Assembly (NCBI GenBank): GCA_002899765.1
Contig: PPDH01000041.1
Coordinates: forward strand, 1 to 43,567
Source of the DNA: Sulfurimonas sp.
Lineage (GTDB): Bacteria; Campylobacterota; Campylobacteria; Campylobacterales; Sulfurimonadaceae
Length of the DNA: 43,567 nt
Direction of reading: 5' to 3'
Each line of letters begins with the position of its first letter. Within the stretch, counting starts at the first letter, position 1. Both the position numbers and the translations under genes were made by a program. The notes beneath the pieces are model-generated. The model was not told where the DNA came from, did no database searches, and worked only from the letters and a program-made list of their open reading frames with translations. This document shows, piece by piece, positions 26,293 through 40,247 of this stretch.

Positions 26293-27009
26293 TTGTTAGA
26301 GATTTTGTACAGAGATGAGTACCTAGTGGCGATAAACAAGCCATCGGGTCTTTTGGTTCACCGCTCACCAATCGACAGACATGAGACAGAGTTTGCGGTG
26401 CAGATTCTTCGAGATCAGATAGGGCAGTTTGTCTATCCCGTTCATCGTTTAGACAAGCCGACTTCGGGAGTTTTGCTTTTTGCACTTGATAAAGAGAGCG
26501 CAAAGCTTATGAGTGAGCAGTTTCGCTCAAGAGAGAGTAAAAAAAGTTATCTGGCAGTTGTCCGCGGTTATATTGATGAGAGCGGAGTTATCGAGCATGC
26601 CTTAAGCGTGAAACTTGATAAAATCGCAGATAAAGACAGCTCTAACGACAAAGAGGCTCAAGAGGCAACAACCCACTACAGAAGAGTTGCAACGGTTGAG
26701 ATTCCTTTTGCCGTAGGAAAGTATGACAAAACGAGATATTCTCTTGTGAGTCTTGAGCCCCAAACCGGACGAAAACATCAGCTACGCCGTCACATGAAAC
26801 ATATTTCACACCATATCTTGGGCGATACGAAGTATGGAAGAGGCGAGCATAACAAACTCATACGAGAAGAGTTTAACTGCCACAGAATGCTTTTACATGC
26901 AAGCTCTCTTCAAATTAAGCACCCGTATACGAATGATACGCTCATTATTAAAGCGCCTTTAGATGAGACTTTTAAAGCAATATACAAGTTTTTTAACTGG
27001 TATATTTGA
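26293..27009 (+). CDS. RluA-family pseudouridine synthase (TruC-like)
   Basis: A 238-residue enzyme without an S4 domain. The N-terminus LEILYRDEYLVAINKPSGLLVHRSPIDRHE and the catalytic VYPVHRLDKPTSGVLLFAL (Asp of HRLD) are the RluA/TruC signature. LEPQTGRKHQLRRHMKH and LGDTKYGRGEHN follow. TruC modifies U65 of tRNA; this assignment is by length and N-terminus only. The start is TTG 26293, six bases after the helicase stop, so the two are probably co-transcribed. Confidence 0.85.
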   Translation: MLEILYRDEYLVAINKPSGLLVHRSPIDRHETEFAVQILRDQIGQFVYPVHRLDKPTSGVLLFALDKESAKLMSEQFRSRESKKSYLAVVRGYIDESGVIEHALSVKLDKIADKDSSNDKEAQEATTHYRRVATVEIPFAVGKYDKTRYSLVSLEPQTGRKHQLRRHMKHISHHILGDTKYGRGEHNKLIREEFNCHRMLLHASSLQIKHPYTNDTLIIKAPLDETFKAIYKFFNWYI

Positions 27010-27041
27010 TATAATCCCACTAATTTTACATAGGAGCAACC

Positions 27042-27485
27042 ATGGAAGCAATCTATCCGTACGCACATCTAATTCACTTACTTTTGGCAATCATATTTTT
27101 AGGTTATGTTTTTACGGACGTATTTATGATTTCATCACTTAAAAATAAGTTTGGCAAAGAGACAGATGAGAAGATTAACCAGACATTAGGTTCTAAAAGC
27201 TTTAAAATCTTCCCTATTTCACTTCTTGTTATTGTTTTAACAGGCGGTATGATGATGTCAAGATATATCAACTCCACTGCAGGTTTTTTTGAGACAGATA
27301 TACAAAAACTTCTCGTTATCAAAATAGTGCTGGCACTTATTATCGTAGCGGGTGTGTTATTTAACCTTTTTACAAAATTTACGGGTAGAAAAAAACCAAA
27401 GTTTATGCAAGAGCAGTTTCATAAAGTAGTTCTAATCTTAGGATTTTTCATAGTAGTTTTAGCAAAAATGATGTTTAGCGCGTAA
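27042..27485 (+). CDS. CopD-like four-helix membrane protein
   Basis: A 147-residue inner membrane protein with four hydrophobic segments (about 9-29, 55-73, 88-110, 124-145) and an early His pair, YAHLIHLLLAIIFLGYVFTD, reminiscent of the CopD/DUF2269-type heme or copper membrane proteins. GAGCAACC precedes the ATG at 27042. No partner gene identifies its role. It is the last housekeeping gene before the repeat-rich region. Confidence 0.6.
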   Translation: MEAIYPYAHLIHLLLAIIFLGYVFTDVFMISSLKNKFGKETDEKINQTLGSKSFKIFPISLLVIVLTGGMMMSRYINSTAGFFETDIQKLLVIKIVLALIIVAGVLFNLFTKFTGRKKPKFMQEQFHKVVLILGFFIVVLAKMMFSA

Positions 27486-27718
27486 TAACGATGTGCGCTT
27501 ACTATGACATGTGAGTGTCACGTGCCAATGAGTGAAACAACGCGGCAGTCTGAAATGACAGTAGATTGCCGCGGCTAAAGCCTCGCAATGACAAGCGCGG
27601 GAATTTCCCACTTCGTCATTGCAAGCGAAACAATTTCCCACCTCGTCATTGCGAGGAGCCTGCGACGAAGCAATCTCTCTTGTCACTTTAGATTGCCGCG
27701 CTTCGCTCGCAATGACGG
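27486..27718. repeat. Cluster of dispersed REP/MITE-like repeat units
   Basis: A noncoding stretch packed with variants of one palindromic unit. They lie at 27564-27593 (GATTGCCGCGGC to CGCAATGAC), about 27616-27634 (GTCATTGCAAGCG), 27645-27677 (GTCATTGCGAGGAGCC to GAAGCAATCTC) and 27691-27718 (GATTGCCGCGCTTCG to CAATGACGG), with a degenerate copy around 27511-27560. Units alternate in orientation and their ends are complementary. Open frames across them are repeat artefacts. The unit at 27690-27718 has an exact inverted partner at 28457-28485. Confidence 0.8.
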
Positions 27719-27772
27719 AGAAGCTTTGCTTGCAATGTCACATAAGGTGGCGACTGACACCCTTTTCTGTTT

Positions 27773-28009
27773 CTAAACTCTTATTGATTTTTCATAAAGT
27801 ATTTCTGGATCTAAGTCTAAATGGTTTGACCACTCTATAGAATCAAAACTTACCCTTACACTGTTAAAAATAGATTTGTCTTTTAACTCTGAAAATTTAC
27901 CTATATGTAGATACTAAGATACATCAAAAATTATCTTTTCACTGTTTTCAAAAGTTAGAAGTAGTTTATAGTCCTTTTGTGGTTCTACTGATTTAATTGC
28001 TAAATACAT
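27773..28009 (-). pseudogene. DUF2442 protein, interrupted by TAG
   Basis: A 78-codon frame from ATG 28009 (AAGGAG upstream) to 27773 reads MYLAIKSVEPQKDYKLLLTF, then IIFDVS, TAG at 27914-27916, then YLHIGKFSELKDKSIFN, SIEWSNHLDLDPEILYEKS. The DUF2442 pattern (FDV...YL..G.F.ELKD, and I.W.......P..LY) is retained on both sides of the stop. The lost residue is uncertain because the family often has Pro there; GAG or TCG would be one base away from TAG. Its start overlaps the end of DUF4160 territory by 10 bp less than a full gap, as usual for this pair. The two domains commonly occur together and have been suspected of toxin-antitoxin-like behaviour. Confidence 0.75.
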
Positions 28010-28018
28010 TATTTCTCC

Positions 28019-28285
28019 TTATTTTAATGGCTCTATAGAAAATGGCAATTCACCGTTTTGAGCTAAATTCCAATCTGCCATCAATTCATCTTTATGCAAT
28101 TCTGCCCAAGCCTCAACTAACTTTTTTTGTTTATTTGGTAGTTTGCCATCGCTTACTTCACAACTATTTAAATCTAAGATTGCAGTATACTCATTATAGT
28201 AAACATGGATATGAGGTGGATTATGCTCATTTGGGGAACAATACATTCTAATAATTATCCCATAAAACATGCTGATAGTCGGCAT
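28019..28285 (-). CDS. DUF4160 protein
   Basis: An 88-residue protein with the DUF4160 core: PTISMFYGIIIRMYCSPNEH, NPPHIHVYYNEYTAILDLN and a C-terminal KKLVEAWAELHKDELMADW. It lies immediately upstream of the DUF2442 gene on the same strand, the standard arrangement for these families. No biochemical function is established. The pair sits alone between copies of an exact inverted repeat. Confidence 0.85.
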   Translation of the reverse strand: MPTISMFYGIIIRMYCSPNEHNPPHIHVYYNEYTAILDLNSCEVSDGKLPNKQKKLVEAWAELHKDELMADWNLAQNGELPFSIEPLK

Positions 28286-28456
28286 TAAGAACCTCTTCTG
28301 TTGACATAGTAGATATTATAGCTAAAAGTAATTTATAAAAGAAAAAAGAATAGAAATCAATTTAATAGAATTTTATTTTGATAGAAGTAGCGTTATGTTA
28401 ATTAAAGGAAAGTTTAAGAAAAAGCATAAAAGAGTGCCTAGTATCTTTTTACTCGC
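28286..28456. other. Intergenic DNA, no gene seen
   Basis: AT-rich sequence between DUF4160 and the right-hand inverted repeat. It should hold the promoter of the DUF4160/DUF2442 pair on the minus strand. No convincing coding frame or RNA gene is visible. Confidence 0.5.
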
Positions 28457-28485
28457 CCGTCATTGCGAGCGAAGCGCGGCAATCT
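28457..28485. repeat. Right copy of an exact 29-bp inverted repeat
   Basis: The sequence starting CCGTCATTGCGAGCG and ending GCGGCAATCT is the exact reverse complement of 27690-27718. The two copies flank the DUF4160/DUF2442 pair, enclosing 796 bp including the repeats. It belongs to the dispersed family seen at 20.72 and 27.5-27.7 kb. Confidence 0.9.
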
Positions 28486-28503
28486 CAATGACGAAAAAAA
28501 AAG

Positions 28504-28545
28504 CAAAAAAAAAGCCCCACCAACTCTTAAGAGAAAGTGAGGCTT
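28504..28545 (-). terminator. Rho-independent terminator of the S-layer-like gene
   Basis: On the minus strand the stem arms AAGCCTCAC and GTGGGGCTT are followed by a run of about nine T residues. It lies about 75 bp downstream of the stop at 28619, in the right orientation. Confidence 0.8.
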
Positions 28546-28567
28546 AGTTTAACTAACTTTTGTCCGC

Positions 28568-28601
28568 ATTACCACGCAGAACGTGGGAACGTGCGAACGA
28601 G
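28568..28601. repeat. Second dispersed palindromic repeat type
   Basis: TTACCACGCAGAACGTGGGAA with a CCACG/CGTGG hairpin, followed by CGTGCGAACGAG. The word set (TTCCCACGTTCTGCGTGG on the other strand) resembles a common intergenic repeat of Proteobacteria. It lies between the S-layer-like gene and its terminator. Confidence 0.5.
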
Positions 28602-28618
28602 AAAGAGGTTGCTTTGGA

Positions 28619-30862
28619 TTAAGCAATGATGTTATCAGCTGAAAAATCAGCTAAAGTTAATCCTGCCAACTCAATTAACATATCAGTTGTACCATCAGCA
28701 TCAGAATCTATTGCTAAATAAGTTGCAATTGCTTCATCAGCATCAGCTGTAGTATCATTTTCTAGTAATGCATACAATGTTGTAGCAGAAGATGTACCTG
28801 ATAACGTTGCAAATGCTCCATCTGCAGCAGTTACTATAGCAGCAATATCAGCATAGTCAGTAGCAGCTACTTCTACATAGTTACCTGTAGTCGCAGTTGC
28901 ATCACCAGCAAGTCCTAAAGATAAGAAATCTTCTGCATCATCAAAAGTAGTAATAACATCGAATGTATTTTCAGTTGTATCTGTACCATTACCAGTCATT
29001 CCTGAATCACCTGAAGCTATCACAACAGTATCAACTCCAGTGCCTAAAGTGATTGCATCTGCACCAATCGTACCAGTAATTGTATCTCCAAAATTTGAAC
29101 CCTCTATTTCAACAGTTGCAGATACACCATAAGCAAGTGTAATTGCAGAAGCATCGATAATTTGGGCTGTAGTTGCAGCAGAACCATCAATAAAAAGAAG
29201 ACCAGTGCCTTTTAGAGCAAAACCATTAAACTCATTGAATTGAGCAGAAGTAATATCTAAGCTAGTTACTACATTTACAGTATCAACATTACCTGTAATT
29301 GTTGCACCTGTTAAATCAGCACTTGTAGAAGTCAGTGTATTAGCACCTGTTCCTAAAGCTATAGTTGCTGTTGAAGCAAAAGTTGCAGCATTAAGAGTGT
29401 TAGCACCATCACCTAAATTGATATTGTATGCAGCAGTATTTCCTAGTGTAACTTCATCATCACCTGTACCAGTTACTAATACAACTTCACCAGCTGTAAC
29501 AAGAGTTACTGTGTCAGCACCAGCACCTGTCACGAATTGAGACTCATCAGCAGCATCTGTTACAGTTAATGTATCATCACCAGCACCTGTATCAACTGTA
29601 AATAAATCTGTTGCACCACCGTCATCTACTTCAACATCATCATTACCAGCACCTAAAGCAATAAGTTGCTCATCTGCAGTATTACCATCAGATATAACTG
29701 TAATAGCAGCAGTTGATGTAGAGATAATAGAGTTTGCATTAGTTACAGTACCTAAATCAATTGTTTGAGTACCAGTTACAACTAAATCAGCATCATAAAT
29801 ATCTAATGTAGTCATACTTAATTTATCAGCAGTAGCATCTAAATATACTGACTCAAATACATCATTTGCACCGATAGTAACACCGCCAAGTGTAACTGCA
29901 GTAGTTGCATTTTCATTATCAAGTACAGCAAATTTGAATGAACCAGTTGTTTCACCAACAACATTGTCAGCATCTACATTTGTTTGGTTCGTTTTAGTAG
30001 TAATTAATTGGCTATCAGCAACTACTATTGCAAATGTGTTAAAATCAGCATCTAAAACTACAGAGTTTACAGTACTTACATCAGTTAAATCTAAAGCAGC
30101 AGCAGTTCCAACTACTACAGTTACTGTGCCAGTTGCACTGTTTACTAATTCTTCAGCATTTAAAGTAGCAGCAGTCATATTTAATGTAATATCAGCATCA
30201 CCTGAAAGTGTCAATTCATCACCGATTGCATCTACAGTTAATTCTGTAGCAGCAGTAGCAACTAATGTTAATTCATCAACAGCATTTGTAACACTTACTT
30301 CACCAGATACACTAGCAGTAGCTTTTGAACCTGTTGCAGCAGCAGTTTCAGTTACAGATAAGTCTTTATCATTGATACCAGTGATAGTTGTACCTGCATA
30401 ATTAATATTAGCAACAGTAACATCACCTGTAGCAGCCGTAGCATTTACTGTAGCAGCTGTAGCAATGTTTGAAGTAGTATCCATAGTCACAGAGAAATCT
30501 GAAACTTGGTCACCAGCAACAAAATTTGTAGCTCTCATACTAGTTAATGAAACAGCACCAGTGCCGTCAATAGCACCATCTAAAAGGTCTAATCTGTTAA
30601 CAGTTACAGTAGTAGCACCGCTTACACTTGTACCTGCAAATGAGAAAGTACCAACTTTTTGAGCATTGATAGTAATGTTTTCAATACCAGAAACTGTTGG
30701 AGTTGCAGTAATATTTGATGTCGTAGTCAATGTTAATGTATCGCTATCAGTAGATGTAGCATCAATCATTAAGTCACCAGTATTATAAGTAGCTTGTGTA
30801 CCTACGAAAGAATCGTTCTTAGCTGTACCAATAAAACTATCTGTAGCAGCAGTAGTCAACAT
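28619..30862 (-). CDS. S-layer/RTX-like secreted protein with type I secretion C-terminus, apparently lacking its N-terminus
   Basis: 747 residues, extremely rich in Thr, Ala, Asp, Val and Gly, with almost no Cys, Trp or His. The start MLTTAATDSFIGTAKNDSF resembles the region that normally follows an N-terminal anchoring domain in such proteins. The centre has RTX-like glycine-aspartate turns (LGAGNDDVEV, DTGAGDDTLTV, VTGAGADTVTL, VTGTGDDEVTL). The end (FDVITTFDDAEDFLSL, then DSDADGTTDMLIELAGL and LADFSADNIIA) matches uncleaved type I secretion signals of S-layer proteins. The ATG at 30862 has no clear AGGAG site, and a TAG lies nine codons upstream. No ABC exporter genes are nearby. The truncation coincides with the start of accessory DNA. 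Confidence 0.75.
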   Translation of the reverse strand: MLTTAATDSFIGTAKNDSFVGTQATYNTGDLMIDATSTDSDTLTLTTTSNITATPTVSGIENITINAQKVGTFSFAGTSVSGATTVTVNRLDLLDGAIDGTGAVSLTSMRATNFVAGDQVSDFSVTMDTTSNIATAATVNATAATGDVTVANINYAGTTITGINDKDLSVTETAAATGSKATASVSGEVSVTNAVDELTLVATAATELTVDAIGDELTLSGDADITLNMTAATLNAEELVNSATGTVTVVVGTAAALDLTDVSTVNSVVLDADFNTFAIVVADSQLITTKTNQTNVDADNVVGETTGSFKFAVLDNENATTAVTLGGVTIGANDVFESVYLDATADKLSMTTLDIYDADLVVTGTQTIDLGTVTNANSIISTSTAAITVISDGNTADEQLIALGAGNDDVEVDDGGATDLFTVDTGAGDDTLTVTDAADESQFVTGAGADTVTLVTAGEVVLVTGTGDDEVTLGNTAAYNINLGDGANTLNAATFASTATIALGTGANTLTSTSADLTGATITGNVDTVNVVTSLDITSAQFNEFNGFALKGTGLLFIDGSAATTAQIIDASAITLAYGVSATVEIEGSNFGDTITGTIGADAITLGTGVDTVVIASGDSGMTGNGTDTTENTFDVITTFDDAEDFLSLGLAGDATATTGNYVEVAATDYADIAAIVTAADGAFATLSGTSSATTLYALLENDTTADADEAIATYLAIDSDADGTTDMLIELAGLTLADFSADNIIA

Positions 30863-31139
30863 TCCCGTTTCACCTACTCTAAAAACACCCTATTTTACAC
30901 CTTTTTACCCTCTATAAAGCCCTTAAATAAGGGAAATGAAAGTTTTATTTCACAAATTGACTTTTTAGTGTTAAATTTCTTGCTGGCACTATGCTGGCAG
31001 TGATTGAATGTAAAAATGAAGGAATGACACTTTATGAAGCATTATATTAAGGGAGATTATACTGAATATTTTGCTGGCATATTGCTGGCAGCAGGTTAAA
31101 TTTTAAGCTAGTTATAATGTTTAGATTTGGTGGTTTGAG
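30863..31139. other. Intergenic junction DNA with inverted and direct repeats
   Basis: A gap of about 330 bp between divergent genes. It holds the inverted repeat CCCTTAAATAAGGG (30920-30933), the words AAAGCCCTT (30916-30924) and GAAATG (30933-30938) shared with 33220-33234, and two copies of a TGCTGGCA-N3-TGCTGGCAG unit. No coding frame is convincing. It is the most likely boundary between chromosome and integrated DNA. Confidence 0.5.
30981..31091 (+). repeat. Two copies of a paired TGCTGGCA direct repeat
   Basis: TGCTGGCA occurs at 30981, 30992, 31072 and 31083. Each pair has exactly 11-bp spacing (TGCTGGCACTATGCTGGCAG and TGCTGGCATATTGCTGGCAG), and the pairs are 91 bp apart. Such helical-phase doublets are typical of arm-type integrase sites or iterons. 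No copy was seen elsewhere in the window. Confidence 0.7.
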
Positions 31140-31188
31140 TTGATTTAGAGGTTTATTTTGGTATAATAATCACAATTAAAGAAAGGAG
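31140..31188 (+). promoter_or_regulatory. Sigma70-type promoter and ribosome site of the MNT/HEPN pair
   Basis: A -35-like TTGATT (31140-31145), 16-bp spacer, and perfect -10 TATAAT (31162-31167, in GGTATAATAAT) are followed by AAAGGAG (31182-31188) eight bases before the ATG at 31197. Confidence 0.75.
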
Positions 31189-31196
31189 TATCAGCT

Positions 31197-31535
31197 ATGC
31201 CAATTATAGATATTGAAAAAGTCAAAGATGAAATAGTAGAACGATTAAAGCCACTTGATCCTGATAGAGTTATCTTGTTTGGTTCTTATGCTTATGGTAC
31301 TCCTAACGAAGATAGTGATATTGATTTGTATGTTGTTACTAAAGATGAATTTATACCTCAAGACTTTAAAGAAAGAATGACACTAACAAATAAGATTTCA
31401 AATGCAATTGACGCTATTAGAGATAGAACTGCTGTAGATTTAATAGTGCATACTAAAAGTATGGCAGATAAATTTAAAGAACTTAATAGTTCATTCTCTA
31501 GAGAGTTATTATCACAGGGAAAAGTTTTATTATGA
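31197..31535 (+). CDS. MNT-type nucleotidyltransferase (antitoxin of a MNT/HEPN pair)
   Basis: A 112-residue minimal nucleotidyltransferase with the active-site motif FGSYAYGTPNEDSDIDL at residues 29-45 (GSx10DxD) and VDLIVHTKS further on. In characterised pairs this antitoxin transfers AMP groups to the HEPN toxin. It overlaps the HEPN gene by 4 bp (ATGA), the usual coupling. A strong promoter lies directly upstream. Catalytic residues are all present. Confidence 0.87.
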   Translation: MPIIDIEKVKDEIVERLKPLDPDRVILFGSYAYGTPNEDSDIDLYVVTKDEFIPQDFKERMTLTNKISNAIDAIRDRTAVDLIVHTKSMADKFKELNSSFSRELLSQGKVLL

Positions 31536-31945
31536 GCAAATCATTAGCTCTTGACTGGCTTAAATCTTCTTACAGTGATATAGTTACCCTTAATAAAATT
31601 TCAGATGATGACTTTATAACGCATGTAACAGCGTTTCATTCTCAACAATCTACTGAAAAATGCTTAAAAGCTATACTGGAATACAACGACACTAAAGTAC
31701 CTTCAAAACATGATCTTAGAATGCTAAATAGACTTGTAAGTGATTATATTACAATTGATGATGATTTAATTCTTGATTCTCTTAATACTCTATATATAGA
31801 CTCACGCTACCCTGGAGATATGGGGTTACTTCCTCATGGAAAACCTACATTGGAACAAGCACAAGAGTTCTACGAGTTTGCTAAACATATATTCTATCGT
31901 GTGTGTAAACTTCTAGAAATAGATCCAGAAGAAGTAAAAAAATAA
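31532..31945 (+). CDS. HEPN domain protein (toxin partner)
   Basis: A 137-residue all-helical HEPN protein. The phrases SLALDWLKSSYSDI, AFHSQQSTEKCLKAILEYND, PSKHDLRMLNRL and SRYPGD match the HEPN branch that pairs with MNT proteins. The RX4-6H ribonuclease motif of HepT-type toxins is not visible: the candidate Arg in RYPGDMGLLPH is followed by His only at +10. It may therefore be non-nucleolytic or use other residues. A strong hairpin follows its stop. Confidence 0.85.
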   Translation: MSKSLALDWLKSSYSDIVTLNKISDDDFITHVTAFHSQQSTEKCLKAILEYNDTKVPSKHDLRMLNRLVSDYITIDDDLILDSLNTLYIDSRYPGDMGLLPHGKPTLEQAQEFYEFAKHIFYRVCKLLEIDPEEVKK

Positions 31946-31947
31946 AT

Positions 31948-31980
31948 AGTGCCAGAGTAGGACTACCCTACTCTGGTACT
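31948..31980. terminator. Bidirectional hairpin terminator between HEPN and the resolvase-like gene
   Basis: Arms AGTGCCAGAGTAGG (31948-31961) and CCTACTCTGGTACT (31967-31980) match at 13 of 14 positions around a 5-base loop. On the minus strand it is followed by TTTATTTTTTTAC, a good T-tract. It sits exactly between two convergent stops. Confidence 0.85.
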
Positions 31981-32535
31981 TTAACTAGCCTTTTTCTGCT
32001 TAGCAATATGCCGAAGTAAAGTTGACCTACCAACTCCAAACCTATTAGCTACATTTTGAGAAGTTTGATTGTGTTTTAACTCTATTGCTTTTAGTACTTG
32101 CTGTTGAGTTAGTTTTGGTGGTCTGCCTAATCTTACTCCATTTGCTTTTGCTTTAGAGATACCATAGACTTGTTTCTCTACTTTTATATCATCTATAAAC
32201 TCAATTAGATAGAGTAATAGTTCATCTAGGGTATGGGTATCTTTAGAGATAAACTTTTGTTGTACTACTTCTAGGGTTACATCTTTATCATTAAGTTCAA
32301 ATAGTACTTCTAAGAGTGATTGTACACTTATACATAGAATTGATAATATTGTAACTGCTAGTGCATCTCCACTAGATAATGAATCTATAGCTTCTTGAAG
32401 TTTACGCTTTAGTTTAAAGCTTAGCTCCTTTGAAGTCTCTACATATATTTTAGAGCAGCCATGTGAGATAAGAAGTTCTGATTGTTCCTCTATCTCTAGT
32501 TTTGATGTTGATTGTATATATCCTATTCTCTTCAT
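31981..32535 (-). CDS. Serine-recombinase-like protein lacking catalytic residues, with HTH
   Basis: A 184-residue protein with the layout of a resolvase/invertase. The N-terminus MKRIGYIQSTSKLEIEEQSE aligns with GYxRVST of active enzymes, but Arg is Gln and the nucleophile Ser position is Thr. The conserved KLDRLGRS segment reads TILSILCISVQS, losing both catalytic Arg residues. The long helix and the C-terminal Hin-type DNA-binding domain are intact (RLGRPPKLTQQQVLKAIE, then QNVANRFGVGRSTLLRHI). It is probably a DNA-binding accessory or repressor rather than a recombinase. It overlaps the tyrosine recombinase upstream by 4 bp, so the two are coupled. Confidence 0.75.
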   Translation of the reverse strand: MKRIGYIQSTSKLEIEEQSELLISHGCSKIYVETSKELSFKLKRKLQEAIDSLSSGDALAVTILSILCISVQSLLEVLFELNDKDVTLEVVQQKFISKDTHTLDELLLYLIEFIDDIKVEKQVYGISKAKANGVRLGRPPKLTQQQVLKAIELKHNQTSQNVANRFGVGRSTLLRHIAKQKKAS

Positions 32536-33140
32536 CGTATCATAGCTCCTTTTACATCATCATCTGTTGGCTTGATATATCCCATAGTAGTTTTTACATC
32601 ACTGTGACCTATAAACTTACTTATGATTTTTGCATTTATACCTTTTGCTCCCATTTCAGTTATTAAGCCTTGTCTGAATGAGTGTGAAGTGTAACCAGCT
32701 CCAAGTATTGATTTCATAACATCATTAACTTGTGCTATAAATGTGAGTGGGTGTATCCATGTTCGCTTAGAGTGGTTGCTGCCTTTGGCTATAACTTTGA
32801 TTTGTAGGTCTGTATCAGTTTCAAATACAAATAATTTCTTTAGCTGCTTTTTAAACTCATCACCTGCAAAGAGTTTTCTCTCTGATTTAGTTTTAGGTAG
32901 CAGTAACTTTGTCTCTCCTGTATCTAATAGCTCTTTTATATGTGATAGCTTCATCTCTTGTAACTCATTTAGTCGTAAACCTGTAAAGTATAAAATGGTA
33001 AATGCTCGAAGTAGATTATCTCTTGTGTTAGGACGAAGTGACTCATCACCTCTAACTGCACTCATCAGTTTTTTATACTCATGTTCGGTTACTGACTCTT
33101 TTATCCGTTTGGGTGTTTTTCTTTTAGATTTTGCTTTCAT
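32532..33140 (-). CDS. Short tyrosine recombinase (catalytic domain only, FimB size)
   Basis: A 202-residue protein consisting of the catalytic domain alone. It has Arg in LYFTGLRLNELQEMK near residue 56, HxxR in SHSFRQGLITEMGAKG near 153-168, the third box ISKFIGHSDVKTTMGYI with His and the nucleophile Tyr near 188. The usual N-terminal core-binding domain is absent, as in FimB/FimE invertases. AAGGAT precedes ATG 33140. It is coupled by ATGA overlap to the pseudo-resolvase. It is distinct from the larger integrase at 41.8 kb. Confidence 0.82.
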   Translation of the reverse strand: MKAKSKRKTPKRIKESVTEHEYKKLMSAVRGDESLRPNTRDNLLRAFTILYFTGLRLNELQEMKLSHIKELLDTGETKLLLPKTKSERKLFAGDEFKKQLKKLFVFETDTDLQIKVIAKGSNHSKRTWIHPLTFIAQVNDVMKSILGAGYTSHSFRQGLITEMGAKGINAKIISKFIGHSDVKTTMGYIKPTDDDVKGAMIR

Positions 33141-33213
33141 ATCCTTTTCCTTATATTATCTCCTTATTAAGGGGTGTTTTATGGGGTTTTATTTTTGCTT
33201 GATTAATTTGATA

Positions 33214-33268
33214 GGCTTTAAAGCCCTTGAAATGGAGAAACCTTATAAAATGATGAAGTTTATAAGGT
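33214..33268. repeat. Palindrome and inverted repeat upstream of the short recombinase
   Basis: A perfect 12-bp palindrome GGCTTTAAAGCC (33214-33225) is followed by a perfect 10-bp inverted repeat, ACCTTATAAA and TTTATAAGGT (33240-33249, 33259-33268), with a 9-base spacer. AAAGCCCTTGAAATG at 33220 is shared in part with 30916-30938. This may be a recombinase site, an operator, or a terminator for the lipoprotein gene, although no T-run follows. Confidence 0.5.
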
Positions 33269-33278
33269 AAATTACAAT

Positions 33279-33638
33279 CTACTCAAACTCGACACTCCAA
33301 TTTCCATTATCCGTAATTACTTCAACTTTTACTAAATTACACTTAGCTGTATATCCAGCAGTAGCTTTTTGTCCGTATGATAAAGTTTTTGGAAACTCTT
33401 TTTGTCTATGTGCTGTCATTTTACAGTTACCATTATTTGTTATAACATTTTCAATTGTAACTTTATCTATAACTGCAGTTACTTCTACCACTGGTACACT
33501 TATCATATATCCACCCCAATCACTAGAGAGTGTCTTTGCTTCAATTCTTACTGGTGATTGTTCTGGTGTACTATCTGTACAACCACTTAAACCTATTATT
33601 AGCGTTATTGCTACTATACTTGTAATTAATCTCTTCAT
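33279..33638 (-). CDS. Small secreted lipoprotein
   Basis: A 119-residue precursor with a clear lipoprotein signal, MKRLITSIVAITLIIGLSGC, and lipobox Cys at about residue 20. The mature part has two further Cys (GNCKMTAHRQ and AKCNLVKVEV) that may form a disulfide, and a beta-rich pattern. No family is recognised. A small surface lipoprotein next to recombinases and plasmid-type genes could act in surface exclusion, but that is a guess. Confidence 0.72.
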   Translation of the reverse strand: MKRLITSIVAITLIIGLSGCTDSTPEQSPVRIEAKTLSSDWGGYMISVPVVEVTAVIDKVTIENVITNNGNCKMTAHRQKEFPKTLSYGQKATAGYTAKCNLVKVEVITDNGNWSVEFE

Positions 33639-33688
33639 CTGTTTTATCCTTTGTATTTTTTATATAATTTGTTTGCCACTCTTGGCTA

Positions 33689-33916
33689 CTACTCTCTTAA
33701 ACTACCTATTTGATAAAACTCATCAGCACCATCATATTCAACCATTGCCTCATCCATTGTCTTATAAAACACTTCTGCTCTATTTCCACATATATGTTCC
33801 TCGAAATAGATATAACCATCACTATCATCATCCCACTGTACATAATCTATCCCTACACAGTTCTCGTGGAACTCTTTATATTTTTGGTTTTCTGTATATA
33901 TTCGTTTAGCTTTCAT
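33689..33916 (-). CDS. Hypothetical acidic protein
   Basis: A 75-residue acidic protein with WDDDSDGYIYFEEHICGNRAE and DEAMVEYDGADEFYQIG. No family is recognised. Its start overlaps the end of the preceding 55-residue gene by 11 bp, and that overlap supports it being real. Confidence 0.5.
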   Translation of the reverse strand: MKAKRIYTENQKYKEFHENCVGIDYVQWDDDSDGYIYFEEHICGNRAEVFYKTMDEAMVEYDGADEFYQIGSLRE

Positions 33917-34073
33917 CCTCTAGCTCTCTTATTGCGTTTTGTAGTATCTGATGGAAATATAGCTCACCTGTACTCTTCTTATTTTGAATATCTTTTGATA
34001 AAAACTTTAAACCCTCTTTAGTCCAACCTTTAAAGTTATGTTTTGCTTCATTAGTGATATAGAGATTTTCCAT
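33906..34073 (-). CDS. Small hypothetical protein (55 residues)
   Basis: Reads MENLYITNEAKHNFKGWTKE to a terminal ELEDES. GAGGAGCAAGAG stands just before ATG 34073, a good ribosome site. It overlaps the next gene by 11 bp. No known domain. The fit of start site, codon use and overlap supports a genuine gene of the accessory region. Confidence 0.55.
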   Translation of the reverse strand: MENLYITNEAKHNFKGWTKEGLKFLSKDIQNKKSTGELYFHQILQNAIRELEDES

Positions 34074-34432
34074 CTCTTGCTCCTCTTAATCTATTTATTT
34101 TTTTATACTAACTCTTATATGACAGAATTAGATCTGTTAGAACTCCCAATGAAAAGAAACCCACCCAACCTAATTACATTTAGGTTTTATTACATGACCT
34201 AGGCAGCATCCTAGGAGAGACTAAGAACAACCCATAAAAAGATAAAGATAGAAAGAAAAGATAGCACCGACAAGCCAGCAACAAACTCTATTCTTGAAAG
34301 AGGATAGGGGGGAGGGGCGCAAGCCCCGTTGGGGGAAAGGAGAGAACTTCTTAACATATAATCATCTCTAATATAGTCCTTTATACACCCTACTCTGTTG
34401 TAGCTTTTATTTACAAACCTCTCTTTATCAAT
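34074..34432. other. Noncoding structured island with G-rich hairpin
   Basis: About 360 bp without a gene in an otherwise gene-dense region. It contains ACAGA/TCTGT arms near 34133-34148, CCTAA/TTAGG arms near 34170, two CCTAGG palindromes, and a GC-rich block near 34300-34340. That block holds GGGGC-GCAA-GCCCC, a 5-bp stem with a GNRA loop, flanked by runs of five and six G. The latter is striking in AT-rich DNA and could be a replication origin, a structured RNA or a G-quadruplex. No function is shown. Confidence 0.5.
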
Positions 34433-34663
34433 TCATCTGATAGCTTGATAAAATGCTCTATTTGCTATCTTTGGCACTAGTGTTATGCAGATAGCTCCAT
34501 TTAATATATTATGTGGCTTATAGTCTATTTTAGAATAATGAATATCACCCTTATACTCTGCATCTGATTGTTGTTGAATATAGATAAAGTGTCTCTTGTG
34601 TTTGAATTGCACCTCTTGATGTTTATTTAGCTTTTTAGCTAATGTTTTAACTATAGTTTTCAT
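34433..34663 (-). CDS. Hypothetical protein, paralogue of its upstream neighbour
   Basis: A 76-residue protein sharing the frame TLA..L......V.FKHK.H...I....D..Y...I...., followed by a GA-IC segment, with the protein encoded just upstream. The 4-bp overlap (ATGA) with that gene indicates coupling. No family is recognised. A tandem duplication followed by divergence is likely. Confidence 0.55.
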   Translation of the reverse strand: MKTIVKTLAKKLNKHQEVQFKHKRHFIYIQQQSDAEYKGDIHYSKIDYKPHNILNGAICITLVPKIANRAFYQAIR

Positions 34664-34902
34664 AACATAAACGCTACTGCATCTCTTGCACTCCCCTCAC
34701 ATACTCCTCCATCTATCATATTAGCCTCTATAAGCTCATCCTCTTCATCTCTTGCATCACTAGAGTAGATATTGACTATATAGCCACTATCTGCACTTAA
34801 AAAGATTTCGTAATAGTGTTCTTTATGTTTGAACTCTACTATGTTTTTAGTTTTAAGGATTCTTGCTAAAGTGTTGAGTTTGTTATTATGTAGAGCTGAC
34901 AT
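34660..34902 (-). CDS. Hypothetical protein, paralogue of its downstream neighbour
   Basis: An 80-residue protein with NTLARILKTKNIVEFKHKEH, YYEIFLSADSGYIVNIYSSD and an acidic DEEDELIEA. It is related along its length to the 76-residue protein that follows. It starts 3 bp after DUF2958, in the same operon. Function unknown. Confidence 0.55.
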   Translation of the reverse strand: MSALHNNKLNTLARILKTKNIVEFKHKEHYYEIFLSADSGYIVNIYSSDARDEEDELIEANMIDGGVCEGSARDAVAFML

Positions 34903-34904
34903 CT

Positions 34905-35207
34905 TTACTCTCCTTTAATCTTTGAAAATGGTGTAGGTGTAAACGATAAGTCTCTCTCAACTGACAAACCAAGAGAACCGTGAACTGATTCTAACTCCAC
35001 TAAGGTGAAGTATCCCAATTCACTATCAAGCCCTTGTACGAAACCGAAACAAGTTGATACATCTGCTTTTGAGAACTCTATGATGTACCAAGTAAAATTA
35101 CTATCAGGTGTAAATAGCTTTACATGACAGATTGGGTCTAATGTATTTTCAGTTTCATATAGGTCTGGTATATCACTTAGTAGTGTTTGTGGTATTAATT
35201 TACTCAT
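34905..35207 (-). CDS. DUF2958 protein
   Basis: A 100-residue protein with the DUF2958 pattern: IPDLYETENTLDPICHVKLF, TPDSNFTWYIIEF, GLDSELGYFTLVELESVHG and LGLSVERDLSFTPTPFS. The family is common on plasmids, ICEs and phages and has no known activity. It is within a minus-strand operon. Confidence 0.85.
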   Translation of the reverse strand: MSKLIPQTLLSDIPDLYETENTLDPICHVKLFTPDSNFTWYIIEFSKADVSTCFGFVQGLDSELGYFTLVELESVHGSLGLSVERDLSFTPTPFSKIKGE

Positions 35208-35216
35208 CTGTATCTC

Positions 35217-36305
35217 CTATGCAGCAGTTGGTGTATCTATTTTATCTTCTACCAAAGTTTTAAACTTCCCATCTATAAGTTCTATCTCTATATCACTTAG
35301 TTGTGAAGTAAATGAGGTGTTTAGTTTAAATTTACGGTTAAAGAGTTTTGCTAAGAGTTCAGCACCCTCTTTATGGTTACCCTCTGCAACCTCTAGTATC
35401 TCTTGATTTATCCTTAACATCCTTGCTCTATTGGATGGTTTATCATTAGTTGCTTGTGTAGGTGTTATATCTGATAGCTGCTCTTTTTCATTTTGGGTGA
35501 GTTGTGTTTTAGAGTGATTTGTATTTGGTGTATATGGAAATAGTGTATCTTCATCTTCATAACCGTTTTCAAGTGATTTAAGTGCAGATGATAGCTGTAC
35601 TAATTTTATCTTATCCCATGATTTAGCTTTACCATAAGTTGCTTCTACTTTTGCTATATCTATTTTTAGATTATTTATCTTGTTGAGTAGCAGCTCTCTT
35701 GCTTTTACCTCTCCCATATTATTTATGTTTGCCATAGCGTTGTTTTTAGCTTCTTGGAGTACTTTAGTGGCTAGCCATCTAGGGATTGCATTTAGTACTA
35801 CATTTCTAATTGCTTTGCTTTGACCTATTTGGAAGATTATATCAACTCCTCTCTCACCCTCGTAGATCTCTTTGCCGTATTTGTTCTTAGGGCTTTGTTT
35901 GCTTTGTCTAAATGAGCGTGATATATTAAAGCCAGTCTCTAAGTCACAAAAATATGCTGTAAAGATATATGCTTTATCACTCTCTTGAACCTCTACATCT
36001 ACCATTGCATTTCCAAAGTTTCTAACTATTGATAATGCAGCTCCTACTGTTAATCCCTCTATGATAGTTCCCCCTTGTTTCCAGCTATAGATAAACTCTT
36101 CACCAGCAATACTAGCTTCCTCTACACATTTAGATATTACTCTATTTAGGCTTCTAGGGTTTATCACTTGCATAGCTGTTACATATCTGTTTTTAGTTTG
36201 TATTGCACCTGTAGTAAAATCTGTGTTATTCAGTGGTGTAACTGCAATGTTGTCTGCACTTATTAATTGTTGTGTGTCGCTTGTGTTGTTGTCGTTGTAT
36301 AACAT
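35217..36305 (-). CDS. Candidate phage-type recombination (single-strand annealing-like) protein
   Basis: A 362-residue protein. The central region (IEGLTVGAALSIVRNFGNAM, AYFCDLETGFNISRSFRQSK, DIIFQIGQSKAIRNVVLNAI) fits a phage family with the pattern IEG-S-LA, GN, DLE, then Q..SKA.RNAI...IP, which is usually encoded beside an exonuclease. The C-terminal third is low-complexity and charged. A RecB-like nuclease gene follows upstream in the operon order, 33 bp away, giving an exonuclease/annealing pair. The annealing role is an inference from context. Confidence 0.5.
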   Translation of the reverse strand: MLYNDNNTSDTQQLISADNIAVTPLNNTDFTTGAIQTKNRYVTAMQVINPRSLNRVISKCVEEASIAGEEFIYSWKQGGTIIEGLTVGAALSIVRNFGNAMVDVEVQESDKAYIFTAYFCDLETGFNISRSFRQSKQSPKNKYGKEIYEGERGVDIIFQIGQSKAIRNVVLNAIPRWLATKVLQEAKNNAMANINNMGEVKARELLLNKINNLKIDIAKVEATYGKAKSWDKIKLVQLSSALKSLENGYEDEDTLFPYTPNTNHSKTQLTQNEKEQLSDITPTQATNDKPSNRARMLRINQEILEVAEGNHKEGAELLAKLFNRKFKLNTSFTSQLSDIEIELIDGKFKTLVEDKIDTPTAA

Positions 36306-36338
36306 TTGTAATCTCCTGTGTTGTTTTAATTATTTTGT

Positions 36339-37112
36339 TTAAGCGTATAGATACTCTTTATTATCTATATGAAATAGATTTGCAGGGTCTAGTATAGGCT
36401 CACCATTGACTGCTCTGTAAAAATCAGCAATTCTACTTGCTAACATCTCTAAGAGTTCATCTGCCTTTTTCTCTTGTAGTTCAATATCTACTACTCTTGT
36501 TCTTGTGTCTAGTGTTGAAGTGGGTTTTACTATCTCGTGTATCTTTGCAGATGAGATGGTTATATCACTTTGCTTAGCAAGTAGGCTATAGATCGAGAGT
36601 TGCAGTTCATGTTTAAGTTGTAGGTTATTAGAGAGTGTCCCTGCTGTTTTTATATCTACTAGCTCATTATGTTCGGTTACTAGGTCTATAGTTCCTCTAA
36701 CCCCTGCAATGTAGGGATTAGAGTCAAACTTTACCTCTACATACTTTTCAGTATATTTAGGTTCTATGGTTGGCATGATCTCTTTGTGATACGCTTCTAC
36801 CAATCTATTAGCTAGTAGTGCTATCTCGTTTTCATCTTCATCCTCTTGCCAATCCGTTTGTTTAGATAGTATTAGAAACTCCTCATTGGTAGCTTCTATT
36901 ATATGTGAGATATTTGGTAATACACCTGCTTTAATAAACTCACTATATCCGATATGTAGTCCATGATGAACTGAGCTACCTAAGGTTAAGTAGCTTCTAG
37001 CTGGAGTGAACTGTTTGAGTAGATGGGTTTGATACCACTCATAAGGATTTTTTAGAAATGTCTTTATGCTACTTGGTCTTATCCATATTTTATCTTCTTG
37101 AGCTAACATCAA
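36339..37112 (-). CDS. PD-(D/E)XK (RecB/Cas4-like) exonuclease
   Basis: A 257-residue nuclease. The motifs in order are LGSSVHHGLH near residue 46 (metal-binding His), GTIDLVTEHNELVDIKTA near 138-155 (D...DxK core), and QLSIYSLLAK near 170 (QxxxY motif), the RecB/AddB-type nuclease signature. N-terminal WIRPSSIKTFLKNPYEW is also RecB-like. It would process DNA ends for recombination together with the adjacent candidate annealing protein. Confidence 0.8.
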   Translation of the reverse strand: MMLAQEDKIWIRPSSIKTFLKNPYEWYQTHLLKQFTPARSYLTLGSSVHHGLHIGYSEFIKAGVLPNISHIIEATNEEFLILSKQTDWQEDEDENEIALLANRLVEAYHKEIMPTIEPKYTEKYVEVKFDSNPYIAGVRGTIDLVTEHNELVDIKTAGTLSNNLQLKHELQLSIYSLLAKQSDITISSAKIHEIVKPTSTLDTRTRVVDIELQEKKADELLEMLASRIADFYRAVNGEPILDPANLFHIDNKEYLYA

Positions 37113-37119
37113 TAATCCT

Positions 37120-37944
37120 TTATGCTGCTAATTGTTGAGTTTTTAGCTCATATATCTTATCAGCAAGGTTAAATACACCTACATTTATCTCATAATCCTT
37201 TTTCAAAGATGAGATACTTTTCGAGGTGAAGCGTCTTCCAGTTTCTTTATTTACACCTGTTACATTGTTTGCTCTGATTAGGTTTTCTTGTATGATGTTA
37301 AGCACTGTGTAGATGCTACTATCTTTCATATCTTCCTCTCTTTGAGGTACTAGTAACTGTTTAGTATCAACTTCTAAATGAGGTGCAAACTTAAGTGGTG
37401 CAGCTAATCTTGCGAATGTTTGCATCTCTACTTGTGATAACATTGTAGTTGAGTACTCTTTTACTTTTTGTTCTAGCTTTGGTTTATAGTTGCTTACTTT
37501 TTCTATTATCTCTTCAAGATTATTTTCTAAATCTCCTATGTGTCTAAGCTTGTAACTATCGAATGTTTCTCCATCCACAAGCCCATTGGAACAGCAGAAG
37601 CGATATAATCCGATTGAGATAGAAAAAGCTTTGCTCCTATCAAAACTATTGAAGAATATCAGCTCAGGAACTGACTCTTTTTCTTCTAAAAAATCGTCAA
37701 AGTGTCTTAGTCTCACTAGATGGACTTGCTTATTTTCTCTTGACTCTTGTTTTACTTGAGATACCTGTACAGAGGTAACATACCAGTTGAATTTTTCTCT
37801 TAGTTCATTGATTATATCTATACTACTTATTAGAGTATATTTATCGCTCACATCTTCGTGTGCTACTTTATTATAGAGTACTGGATAACTTTGTAGCTCC
37901 TCTTGGCTTAGTGGTTTTAGTTTTGGTATTATGTTTGTTGACAT
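37120..37944 (-). CDS. DUF932 protein
   Basis: A 274-residue protein of the DUF932 type found on plasmids and phages. The family-like segment is PELIFFNSFDRSKAFSISIG and YRFCCSNGLVDGE, with a coiled C-terminal part (DLENNLEEIIEKVSNYKPKL). Role unknown. It follows a group of three micro-ORFs and starts the main metabolic block of the operon. Confidence 0.75.
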   Translation of the reverse strand: MSTNIIPKLKPLSQEELQSYPVLYNKVAHEDVSDKYTLISSIDIINELREKFNWYVTSVQVSQVKQESRENKQVHLVRLRHFDDFLEEKESVPELIFFNSFDRSKAFSISIGLYRFCCSNGLVDGETFDSYKLRHIGDLENNLEEIIEKVSNYKPKLEQKVKEYSTTMLSQVEMQTFARLAAPLKFAPHLEVDTKQLLVPQREEDMKDSSIYTVLNIIQENLIRANNVTGVNKETGRRFTSKSISSLKKDYEINVGVFNLADKIYELKTQQLAA

Positions 37945-37996
37945 TGGTATATCCTTTTGTATATTTCTTTATTTGCTTAAAAGTCTGAGACTAAAA

Positions 37997-38077
37997 CTAT
38001 TTTTCTTCATCTTCTAATACTTCTTTTACAACTGTTCCTACAGCTATTAAAAGTCCTATAATTGTTCCTGCATTCAT
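37997..38077 (-). CDS. Predicted 26-residue membrane peptide
   Basis: Reads MNAGTIIGLLIAVGTVVKEV plus LEDEEK. One hydrophobic helix (about residues 5-17) and a charged tail. ATG 38077 abuts the stop of the 61-residue gene, so translational coupling is likely. Too short for a family call; resembles small membrane-active peptides of mobile elements. Confidence 0.45.
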   Translation of the reverse strand: MNAGTIIGLLIAVGTVVKEVLEDEEK

Positions 38078-38263
38078 CTATGCACCTCTTAGTGGTTGGT
38101 AGTTTGTATTGTTACTTGGATAGATTTTATAAGATTGTTTTTGCATATCATCCAGTTCATCCTCTGTTGGTTCTTTACTAAAGTAATCTAACCACTTAGC
38201 AAATGACCAATCTAACTCATTCTTTTTATCTTGCTCTTTATTAAGCTCTTCTTTTACTTTCAT
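38078..38263 (-). CDS. Hypothetical acidic protein (61 residues)
   Basis: Highly charged N-terminus (MKVKEELNKEQDKKNELDWS), then WLDYFSKEPTEDELDDMQKQ. It starts within the stop of the 38-residue gene (ATGA), so it is coupled to it. No domain is recognised. Confidence 0.5.
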   Translation of the reverse strand: MKVKEELNKEQDKKNELDWSFAKWLDYFSKEPTEDELDDMQKQSYKIYPSNNTNYQPLRGA

Positions 38264-38376
38264 CTTGTTATCATCCTTTCAAGTAGTTTTTCTTTATTTG
38301 ACATTGGAAAAAGTAACTTCTCAAATATTGTTTTAGGTTTAGTATAAAACTTAACCATCACATCATCTTTTTGCAT
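38260..38376 (-). CDS. Small basic hypothetical protein (38 residues)
   Basis: Reads MQKDDVMVKFYTKPKTIFEK to a terminal ERMITR. CAAGGAGCAG before ATG 38376 is a strong ribosome site. It is the first gene of the operon running to 33689. No family is recognised. Confidence 0.5.
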   Translation of the reverse strand: MQKDDVMVKFYTKPKTIFEKLLFPMSNKEKLLERMITR

Positions 38377-38564
38377 ATAACTGCTCCTTGTATTGTGTGG
38401 AATTTTCAAAGCTTTATTAGGCTTATACATTAATGATATATTGTTATAAATTGTTGGAGTCTCCTGTTTAGGAGTGTTTTAGGGTGATATGGTGTAAAAA
38501 TGAGGTGTTTAGAACTTTATTGGGTGGTTTTAGTGTTGAGTTATAATTTTAGGGGTAAAGGGGT
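38377..38564. other. Promoter region of the accessory operon with GGTGT-type words
   Basis: AT-rich stretch upstream of the first operon gene. On the minus strand it has CAATTTATAACAATATAT, a 9-bp-period repeat near 38440-38455 that could be a promoter or operator. On the plus strand at about 38489-38515 the words GGTGTAAAAATGAGGTGTTT are similar to those upstream of the S-layer-like gene at 30.89 kb (minus strand). Confidence 0.4.
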
Positions 38565-38598
38565 GTAGCATAGACAGGAGAGTTCCTATCTATGCTAC
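38565..38598 (-). terminator. Strong hairpin at the end of higA
   Basis: Arms GTAGCATAGACAGGA and TCCTATCTATGCTAC match at 14 of 15 positions with a 4-base loop. The right arm overlaps the higA stop. No T-run follows, so it may stabilise the transcript or be a recombination remnant rather than a classic terminator. Confidence 0.6.
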
Positions 38599-38862
38599 TT
38601 TTATATCTATTTTTTTATCAAATGTTTTAGCTAGTTTTTGTAAGAAGTCTATACCTATGTTTACTGAGCCATTTTCTACTCTACTAATAACAGTTTGTGT
38701 TGTTCCAAGCTTTTTTGCTAGCTCTGATTGTGTTAGTTTGTACTGTAATCTAATACCAACTAAAATATCAACGATTTTATATCGTAACTCTTTTTGTTCA
38801 AACTCCTCTTTAAACTGTGGGTCTTTTAGCTATTTGTTTAAGTGTTTTGTGAAATCATCCAT
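38590..38862 (-). pseudogene. HigA-type XRE antitoxin, interrupted by TAG
   Basis: A 90-codon frame reading MDDFTKHLNK, TAG at 38830-38832 (codon 11), LKDPQFKEEFEQKEL, then the XRE helix-turn-helix KLTQSELAKKLGTTQTVISR and VENGSVNIGIDFLQKLA. The phrase YLxxQLKDPEF is typical of HigA N-termini, so Gln or Glu was probably lost. The HTH lies wholly after the stop, so a downstream restart could still make DNA-binding protein. The gene overlaps the toxin gene by 8 bp. Confidence 0.78.
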
Positions 38863-39197
38863 TTTTTACTTCCTTCATCCTTTTAAGAGCTATCTCTATC
38901 TCTTTTCTAGGTGTTTTTTGAGTTTTTTTTATAAAACCATGTAATAGAATAAAAGTTTTATCTGTATGTGCGAAGTATAATACTCTATATATACCAGACT
39001 TATCTTTAGCTCTTACTTCATATATCTTATTTTCAATAGGTCTTACAAATGGCAATCCTAAATCTATCCCATACTTACTAAGCATTTGAAATATTTTAAA
39101 TATCTCAGCTTTTGGTTCATTATCAATTGAATCAAGCCACTTTTCAATAGGAGAAATATTGTTTTGATTACGGTAGTAGTTTTATCTTCCATTCCAT
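38855..39197 (-). pseudogene. HigB/RelE-type toxin, frameshifted near its start
   Basis: From ATG 39197 the frame begins MEWKI and then shifts at a run of four A (39180-39183); removing one A joins it to NYYRNQNNISPIEKWLDSID, the normal second strand of HigB-type toxins. The rest is intact: MLSKYGIDLGLPFVRPIENK, IYEVRAKDKSGIYRVLYF, ILLHGFIKKTQKTPRKEIE. A product starting at Met 39085 would lack the first strands and probably the activity. Toxin loss may have relaxed selection on the adjoining antitoxin, which has a stop. Confidence 0.75.
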
Positions 39198-39205
39198 AGC
39201 TCAAT

Positions 39206-39223
39206 TATATCTTATAAGATATA
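39206..39223. promoter_or_regulatory. Perfect 18-bp palindrome, HigBA operator candidate
   Basis: TATATCTTATAAGATATA is an uninterrupted palindrome ending 9 bp before the higB start, where HigA-type antitoxins bind to autoregulate. Its centre TATAAG can double as a -10 box. Confidence 0.75.
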
Positions 39224-39260
39224 TTTAGTCAATTAAATTAAAGGCACAGCCCTTGTTAGC

Positions 39261-40127: not shown

Positions 40128-40150
40128 CAAGCTCTCCTTGTATTTTGTGC

Positions 40151-40167
40151 ATAACGCGTTATAACGC
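40151..40167. promoter_or_regulatory. ATAACGC palindrome plus direct repeat, operator candidate
   Basis: A perfect 12-bp palindrome ATAACGCGTTAT (40151-40162) and a second ATAACGC at 40161-40167 give half-sites exactly 10 bp apart. It lies 24 bp upstream of the HTH gene start and downstream of the helicase gene on the minus strand. Confidence 0.6.
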
Positions 40168-40210
40168 ATTCTTGTATAGATAAGTGGCTTTGGCATTGAT
40201 GATGTTTTTC

Positions 40211-40235
40211 AAAAAAGCCTACTAAATAGGAGGCT
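40211..40235 (-). terminator. Rho-independent terminator of the helicase gene
   Basis: On the minus strand, AGCCTCCTA and TAGTAGGCT arms form a stem with one mismatch and are followed by TTTTTT. It lies 12 bp past the stop of the SF3 helicase gene, in the correct orientation. Confidence 0.8.
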
Positions 40236-40247
40236 CTTTTATGGTTA

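Follow-up and report, generated by a model that had tools for sequence, protein, structure and literature searches.

What does a resolvase-like protein without a resolvase active site do directly behind the gene of a tyrosine recombinase? The question is raised by two genes of a Sulfurimonas draft genome (2.39 Mb, 45 contigs), located on a stretch of 43,567 nucleotides that was analysed as a whole and is called the window here. Serine and tyrosine recombinases form superfamilies that are unrelated in fold and chemistry, and we know of no arrangement of a serine-resolvase helper with a tyrosine recombinase other than engineered constructs of Cre and Tn3 resolvase. The leading, though unproven, explanation is a two-family recombination module: the pair would be a resolution module in which the tyrosine recombinase (TR) cuts while the dead resolvase binds DNA and assists in synapsis without any catalysis of its own, a reading to which we assign a probability of roughly 0.4.

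The gene pair and its lost active site

A first-pass annotation had placed two overlapping reading frames here, and the ORF coordinates agree with it in position and extent of overlap (4 bp):

32532-33140, minus strand: small TR of 202 aa (ORF list, Pfam, alignment with XerD)
31981-32535, minus strand: catalytically dead resolvase-type serine recombinase of 184 aa with retained HTH (ORF list, Pfam, alignment, selection)

The overlap consists of ATGA at 32532-32535, which holds the stop of the TR and the start of the dead resolvase. The TR matches Phage_integrase (Pfam, 54.4 bits, cut-off 27.1) and is placed among the tyrosine recombinases by its R, HxxR, H and Y, which align with XerD. Its catalytic set looks full in this alignment (the Arg of GLRLNE, HSFR, and GHSDVKTTMGY), with the Lys lacking a structural placement. 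FimB/FimE-type recombinases resemble the TR in size and domain content. As the annotation had stated, the second protein retains the domain order of resolvases and the HTH: the Resolvase N domain (40.1 bits, cut-off 23.3) and HTH_7 (25.3 bits, cut-off 23.8) both score above the Pfam cut-offs, and together with the alignment to Gin they assign the protein to the small serine recombinases by architecture. AlphaFold2 models computed from 3-4 sequences (mean pLDDT 58.7 and 45.5) were too poor for use.

The catalytic residues of the family are a different matter. The dead resolvases, six in number (see below), were aligned with the solved Gin invertase and with active relatives; residue numbers are those of gamma-delta resolvase (R8, S10, R45, D67, R68, R71). 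D67, R68, R71 and R45 are replaced in all six members, R45 by Lys throughout, and in place of the D-R-x-x-R-S segment the window has SILCIS and the other five have SILSSS. The position of R8 is occupied by Gln in the window and by Gln, Lys or Arg among the six, and a conserved Gly-Arg pair further along falls in an alignment gap. The S10 nucleophile is ambiguous, as the aligner sets a one-residue gap there; once that gap is removed, the window and G092 have Thr at this position, and each of the remaining four members has a Ser that can be aligned with it. Of the losses claimed in the annotation, that of the two Arg of the segment therefore stands, with D67 and R45 to be added, whereas that of the Ser nucleophile is ambiguous. 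The protein does not carry the catalytic set of small serine recombinases (R8, S10, R45, D67, R68, R71) and, judged by its residues, is a serine recombinase relative by descent, not an active member. In the loci examined without a motif filter, D-R-x-x-R is kept by all matches outside the dead family in which the segment is covered, with L029 (S-R-L-G-R) as the one exception; it is not covered in four rows (L006 and L032, which show one and the same remnant, L013, and L014), and the check extends to those of the 38 family-search matches that have a locus (all except 7). The nearest active resolvases found are at most 38% identical to the dead ones.

Recurrence, selection and descent

Three genome sets were searched, with 228 genomes from the family, 397 sampled from the phylum and 398 sampled from the order, as well as the GTDB 220 contigs (two N-terminal patterns only). 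The pair occurs in 6 loci of 5 genomes, with constant gene order:

window and contig C10, both in the window's genome (G000), which thus holds a second pair
G092
G196, whose 3054-base contig is identical to L065, a Sulfurimonas MAG
L064, a Nitratiruptor MAG; the loci of G651 are stretches identical to it
L066, a Campylobacterales MAG

The dead gene lies directly behind the TR with an ATGA overlap in 6 of 6 loci; the G196 contig begins inside the TR and shows its 3' end only. The annotation had named a pair unique to this genome, or close relatives with active residues, as outcomes that would speak against its proposal. Neither arose: the pair occurs in five genomes, of which the Nitratiruptor MAG belongs to another family, and all six members share the loss. 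Such recurrence indicates that the pair is more than chance. The dead resolvase is nevertheless rare (3 of 228 family genomes), and relatives of the TR are more common, with a match at E <= 1e-10 in 22 of 228, including the 3 with the pair. When 28 TR loci fetched from related genomes were checked by tblastn, only 2 (G092, G196) had a resolvase-like gene at a distance of up to about 1.5 kb; the other 26 had none in that range. IMG/VR viral contigs yielded neither protein by protein search and no match to the conserved upstream DNA. On plasmids, 1758 records match the dead protein, all below 60% identity (32-35% among the 15 matches listed), and 49 records match the TR, likewise all below 60%; of four plasmid regions inspected, two were scanned for an upstream inverted repeat, and neither contained one similarly placed. 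One match on an Aliarcobacter plasmid adjoins a Tn3-family transposase, but its frame differs from that of the preceding gene, and it was set aside.

All six dead resolvases are 184 aa long and align without an internal gap. Values of dN/dS range from 0.07 to 0.31 across all 15 pairs, with dS of at least 0.69 in 14 of them. Among the five close members, constraint on the dead catalytic (N) domain is about equal to that on the HTH; between the window and the other members, identity is 63-74% in the HTH and 55-58% in the N domain. Purifying selection on both halves of the protein supports a retained function. In view of the recurrence, the shared loss and this selection, the term 'two-family recombination module' used in the annotation is fair as a description of anatomy only.

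In the trees, the six dead proteins form one group (100/100; active resolvases were admitted only with a D/E-R-x-x-R motif), and the five complete partnered TRs form another (100/97), nested among partner-less TRs. Since the partnered TRs are a single clade among partner-less ones, the partner was probably gained once. The histories of the two proteins differ in part. Between the window and C10 the TRs are 97% identical and the dead resolvases 61%, and in blocks of 60 bases the nucleotide identity is 0.73-0.95 in the TR and 0.50-0.85 in the partner, with the drop at the gene overlap. This drop points to partners that are exchangeable, and the partner gene has probably been exchanged between TRs, which counts against tight co-evolution. 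The dead protein is a maintained pseudoenzyme behind one TR clade.

A candidate recombination site and the surrounding element

Upstream of the TR, three sequence features were distinguished:

33240-33268, minus strand: candidate core recombination site of the TR, a perfect inverted repeat ACCTTATAAA-N9-TTTATAAGGT (repeat scan, genome search; one per element in the window's genome)
33161-33187, minus strand: candidate accessory site, a degenerate second half-site copy (ACCCCATAAAA ... TTAATAAGGA) 81 bp from the left arm of the core (spacing)
33213-33228, no strand assigned: short palindrome AGGCTTTAAAGCC between the core and accessory candidates, with a similar sequence at 30911-30926

An inverted repeat of 29-31 bp, about 100 bp before the TR start, also precedes most of the close partner-less TRs; it is built alike and placed at nearly equal distance, with other arms (ACGACATAAA, ACACTATAAA) and other spacers. 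In the nearest TR clade, 10 of 12 members have the repeat, its near end 95-120 bp before the start, and arms and spacers vary by element (nine of the ten come from the automatic scan and the repeat of L088 is imperfect; L093 and L094 are copies of one TR). The automatic scan of 250 bp upstream returned an inverted repeat in 15 of 28 TR loci, some of them positioned elsewhere and possibly unrelated, as compared to 17 of 560 shuffles, which preserve base composition only. Its sample comprises 23 of the 28 fetched related-genome TR loci (motif filter) and the five complete pairs, with G092 taken from a longer stretch; 30 of the 31 TR matches have a locus. The site of G092 is without its left arm, yet both genes are intact; in L071, another member of this TR clade, a clear repeat is missing. 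The window's draft genome contains two mismatch-free copies of the site, one per element, and no further mismatch-free copy; four places match with 3 mismatches. A relaxed site pattern matches 5, 0 and 2 places in G088, G092 and G199, with 2, 2 and 1 for the controls; it misses the sites of some G088 TRs and that of G199. Three of the five matches in G088 adjoin TRs, and a perfect match at 474218, whose arms are incompletely paired, lies away from any TR found. The inverted repeat is a strong candidate for the crossover site of the TR.

The accessory candidate rests on its spacing. A degenerate direct repeat of the half-site lies exactly 81 bp from the left arm of the core in 6 of 10 loci (8/11 or 9/11 matches); shuffles reach 8/11 somewhere in 44-75% of cases, and single matches of that quality are not significant, so that the fixed distance is what favours the candidate. 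A binding site for the dead protein was not found in the stretches scanned. Active relatives have a TGTCTC half-site upstream, but in the paired loci it does not occur in the 250 bp before the TR; within the scanned stretches, TGTCTC is present three times in L066 and, for the window, C10 and L064, once each inside the TR gene.

The layout resembles TnpI/IRS of Tn4430 and Tn5401, for which a core inverted repeat of a tyrosine recombinase just upstream of its gene and additional half-sites in direct repeat are described, with toxin-antitoxin genes close by in Tn5401 and TnBth4 (PMC7157771). At the pair, too, a core-type inverted repeat, here with a putative role in crossover, stands immediately upstream of the recombinase gene, and toxin-antitoxin genes are nearby. 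The comparison is one of layout. TnpI is a single protein on a Tn3-type transposon, whereas here the element is apparently integrative, the TR has 202 aa and its dead partner comes from the serine family. One core site per element beside the recombinase gene fits resolution, as in TnpI/IRS or TnpS-TnpT, better than inversion. Invertible DNA, which the annotation had advised to look for near the pair, did not emerge in any form tied to the TR, the candidate core occurring once per element. Two inverted sites around a segment, as in fim-type systems, were not seen either: there is one TR-type site per element in the window's genome, and one per stretch of up to 20 kb around the TRs of G088, G139 and G199 where it was sought. 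The pair differs from FimB/FimE in that the search of the window's genome found no further copy of the inverted repeat with which an invertible segment could be delimited. As a side observation, G088 encodes two identical TR proteins (G088:C1:978538 and 1414490) with identical core-type repeats on one chromosome; the two copies are oppositely oriented and separated by about 436 kb, an arrangement that suggests a recombinase of low activity or one selective for orientation.

The pair appears to belong to an integrative element with the following further features:

31948-31980, no strand assigned: hairpin behind the dead resolvase in each of the six loci, read as an intrinsic terminator, bidirectional in the window
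31197-31945, plus strand: convergent toxin-antitoxin module of MNT nucleotidyltransferase and HEPN (Pfam)
30911-31127, no strand assigned: conserved non-coding block that contains AAGGGCTTTATAG and, at a distance of 91 bp, two pairs of TGCCAGC direct repeats, the putative right end of the element
41792-42952, minus strand: large integrase with Arm-DNA-bind_3, SAM-like and catalytic domains (Pfam), presumably of the same element

A protein-binding role of the hairpin was considered and rejected: as RNA it folds far better than shuffles, beating all of them in C10, G196, L064 and L066 and, for the window, on either strand, and a T run follows; it is therefore read as a terminator. Toxin-antitoxin genes accumulate downstream of the pair in most loci. 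By Pfam, the toxins are HEPN/MNT in the window, RelE-like (below cut-off) on C10, ParE in G196, PIN, BrnT and Zeta in L064, and RelE and Gp49 in L066; this typing left out the second module of G196 and the three of G092. One to three modules of differing families, in reverse orientation, lie at window 31197-31945, L064 4747-7605, L066 1652-3061, L032 819-2280 and G092:C1:1799640-1802003. Six modules come after the first of an array (two in G092, one in G196, two in L064, one in L066). Four of these are preceded by a 3' remnant of the dead resolvase (17, 49, 10 and 145 aa, that of 10 aa in L064 being a weak match with E 0.52); in front of the other two there is only the hairpin. We read the arrays as successive insertions of related elements of which the toxin-antitoxin part alone survives.

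The conserved non-coding block that closes the array is probably the right end of the element. Its TGCCAGC pairs are 91 bp apart in 7 of 7 places with both (window 30982-31090, C10, G092 twice, L064, L066 and G196), and a single pair occurs in three more places; they are possible arm-type or excisionase sites of the large integrase. Upstream of another integrase on C10, TGCAGGT repeats of similar build were noticed by eye. Further genes of the apparent element encode a primase-like protein, a DUF932 protein and an exonuclease. Tn3 transposases are about 1000 aa long, and judged by ORF length no reading frame of that class is present in the interval from integrase to pair in the window or ahead of the pair on C10. 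Directly at the putative element end, window 28619-30862 holds a repeat-rich RTX/S-layer-like coding sequence, apparently without a start. The label is our own, as no Pfam family matches this ORF at E 0.1, and the fragments of the window and C10 gave no match to DUF4214, which is the N-terminal domain of such genes at other places in the window's genome. An RTX-like fragment lies beyond the block in all four loci that reach so far (window, C10, G092, G196), and the start-less fragment at the element end suggests that the elements insert into RTX-like genes. The left junction of the window's element cannot be read because the contig ends in an IS-like repeat: positions 43475-43567 are shared with C10 near 86.0 kb and appear to be the terminal part of an insertion sequence by which the assembly was interrupted.

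Possible roles of the dead protein

In the favoured reading, the pair would be a resolution-type recombination module of an integrative element. The TR would recombine copies of the 29-31 bp inverted repeat, for example those of two element copies in direct order. The dead resolvase would bind DNA via its retained HTH, probably as a dimer, and would help to build or select the synaptic complex without cutting. What the sequences show is the loss of the active site, the gene overlap, the recurrence, a single clade for each protein, the purifying selection and, in the window's genome, one perfect inverted repeat per element. We infer crossover at the inverted repeat, resolution as the reaction and an action of the dead protein upon it. 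The pair may moreover be a natural hybrid, in which a resolvase-derived pseudoenzyme acts as the synaptic, topology-sensing part and an unrelated TR cuts the DNA, an idea that we regard as plausible but somewhat doubtful. Several observations count against a helper: partner-less TRs are the more common form (26 of 28 loci) and the scans gave no binding site for the protein, and the intact genes of G092 despite the lost left arm, as well as L071 with no clear repeat, point in the same direction, as do the probable exchange of partners seen between window and C10 and the G088 site match away from any TR found.

Precedents exist. At Tn3 res, catalytically inactive S10A resolvase is described to work at accessory sites II and III (PMC9943657). 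The dead protein is allied to Tn3/gamma-delta resolvase by its fold family, as judged from sequence, and by the fact that subunits at accessory sites need no catalysis; the difference is that the resolvase itself cuts at site I, whereas here the TR would cut. Two-component resolution by a tyrosine recombinase and a helper protein is described for TnpS-TnpT/rst of the Tn4651 subgroup (PMC7157771). There the helper is divergent across the site, whereas the present one is a resolvase pseudoenzyme by its Pfam match, in an overlapping, co-directional operon with the site upstream of both genes; the comparison is one of layout. Artificial systems have joined Tn3 res/resolvase elements to Cre (PMC2409434). 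The matches listed from a search of open-licence literature (titles and starts of abstracts, with subscription papers mostly outside) include no natural pair of such kind. An engineered Cre-Tn3 resolvase hybrid was reportedly made by Kilbride, Boocock and Stark (1999) and Kilbride et al. (2006); it shares the combination of resolvase/res with a tyrosine recombinase, and differs in being man-made, where the combination proposed here would be natural. If this is true, the pair is the natural counterpart of these hybrids, and the architectural half of a resolvase can be reused alone, as the accessory-site experiments with dead subunits predict. The setting is mobile DNA in a few Campylobacterota, and the compact two-gene system, with a candidate site of 130 bp, is testable on plasmids.

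Other roles of the dead protein have to be weighed against that of a helper. It might instead control transcription, be it of its own operon, of the toxin-antitoxin genes nearby or of the element, with no role in recombination. This is unlikely, though with arguments on its side: the HTH is retained and is better conserved than the N domain between the window and the other members, binding of resolvase is described to autoregulate Tn3 promoters (PMC7157771), and a regulator would explain the tolerated exchange between TRs. A plain repressor, however, would hardly need the N-terminal domain, which is about as constrained as the HTH in the five close members, nor is a regulatory role easily reconciled with the fact that all six proteins are found behind one TR clade. 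It is more doubtful still that the protein is a directionality factor for the large integrase (41792-42952) instead of a partner of the TR. Both genes are on the same strand and apparently in the same element, and the direct repeats with a period of 11 bp near the putative element end resemble arm or Xis sites. A resolvase dimer, however, uses inverted sites, and these repeats are direct; the pair of G092 is also intact with no large integrase among the ORFs between its two RTX-like genes. That the protein acts in trans as a competitor, occupying the res sites of other elements and blocking active resolvases, seems improbable. The HTH does resemble that of active DRCSRS resolvases in related genomes, and res-like sequences beside another integrase on C10 were noted by eye, but the competitor idea gives no reason why a single TR clade precedes the protein in all 6 loci.

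That the pair drives phase variation of the RTX-like surface gene next to it, through inversion or an exchange of cassettes, is about as improbable as such a competitor, even though a start-less RTX/S-layer-like fragment is present in all four loci that reach so far. There is one core-type inverted repeat per element and none on the RTX-like side, the partner-less relatives of the TR have other neighbours, and insertion of the element into an RTX-like gene explains the fragment better; this reading was dropped for lack of suitable sites. To a decaying passenger without function we give next to no credence. Remnants of the dead resolvase do accumulate behind the pair, but the gene is intact and of equal length in six loci, and purifying selection, with dN/dS well below 1 at the divergence given above, contradicts decay.

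Some minor observations concern other repeats. Upstream of other integrases in the window's genome (L043/L044, C10:65845-66490 and 85440-86220) lie res-like sequences that were recognised by eye, TGTCCCATAATTAGTTATAGGACA and a second, longer one, although the ORFs listed for their surroundings showed no apparent serine resolvase. Window 27581-28488 contains copies of a GC-rich repeat (CGTCATTGCGAGCGAAGCGCGGCAATC), of which one pair of 32 nt is inverted around a DUF4160 gene (27687/28457). This pair is one of several inverted repeats returned by a repeat search of 27000-43567 and is unlike the TR site.
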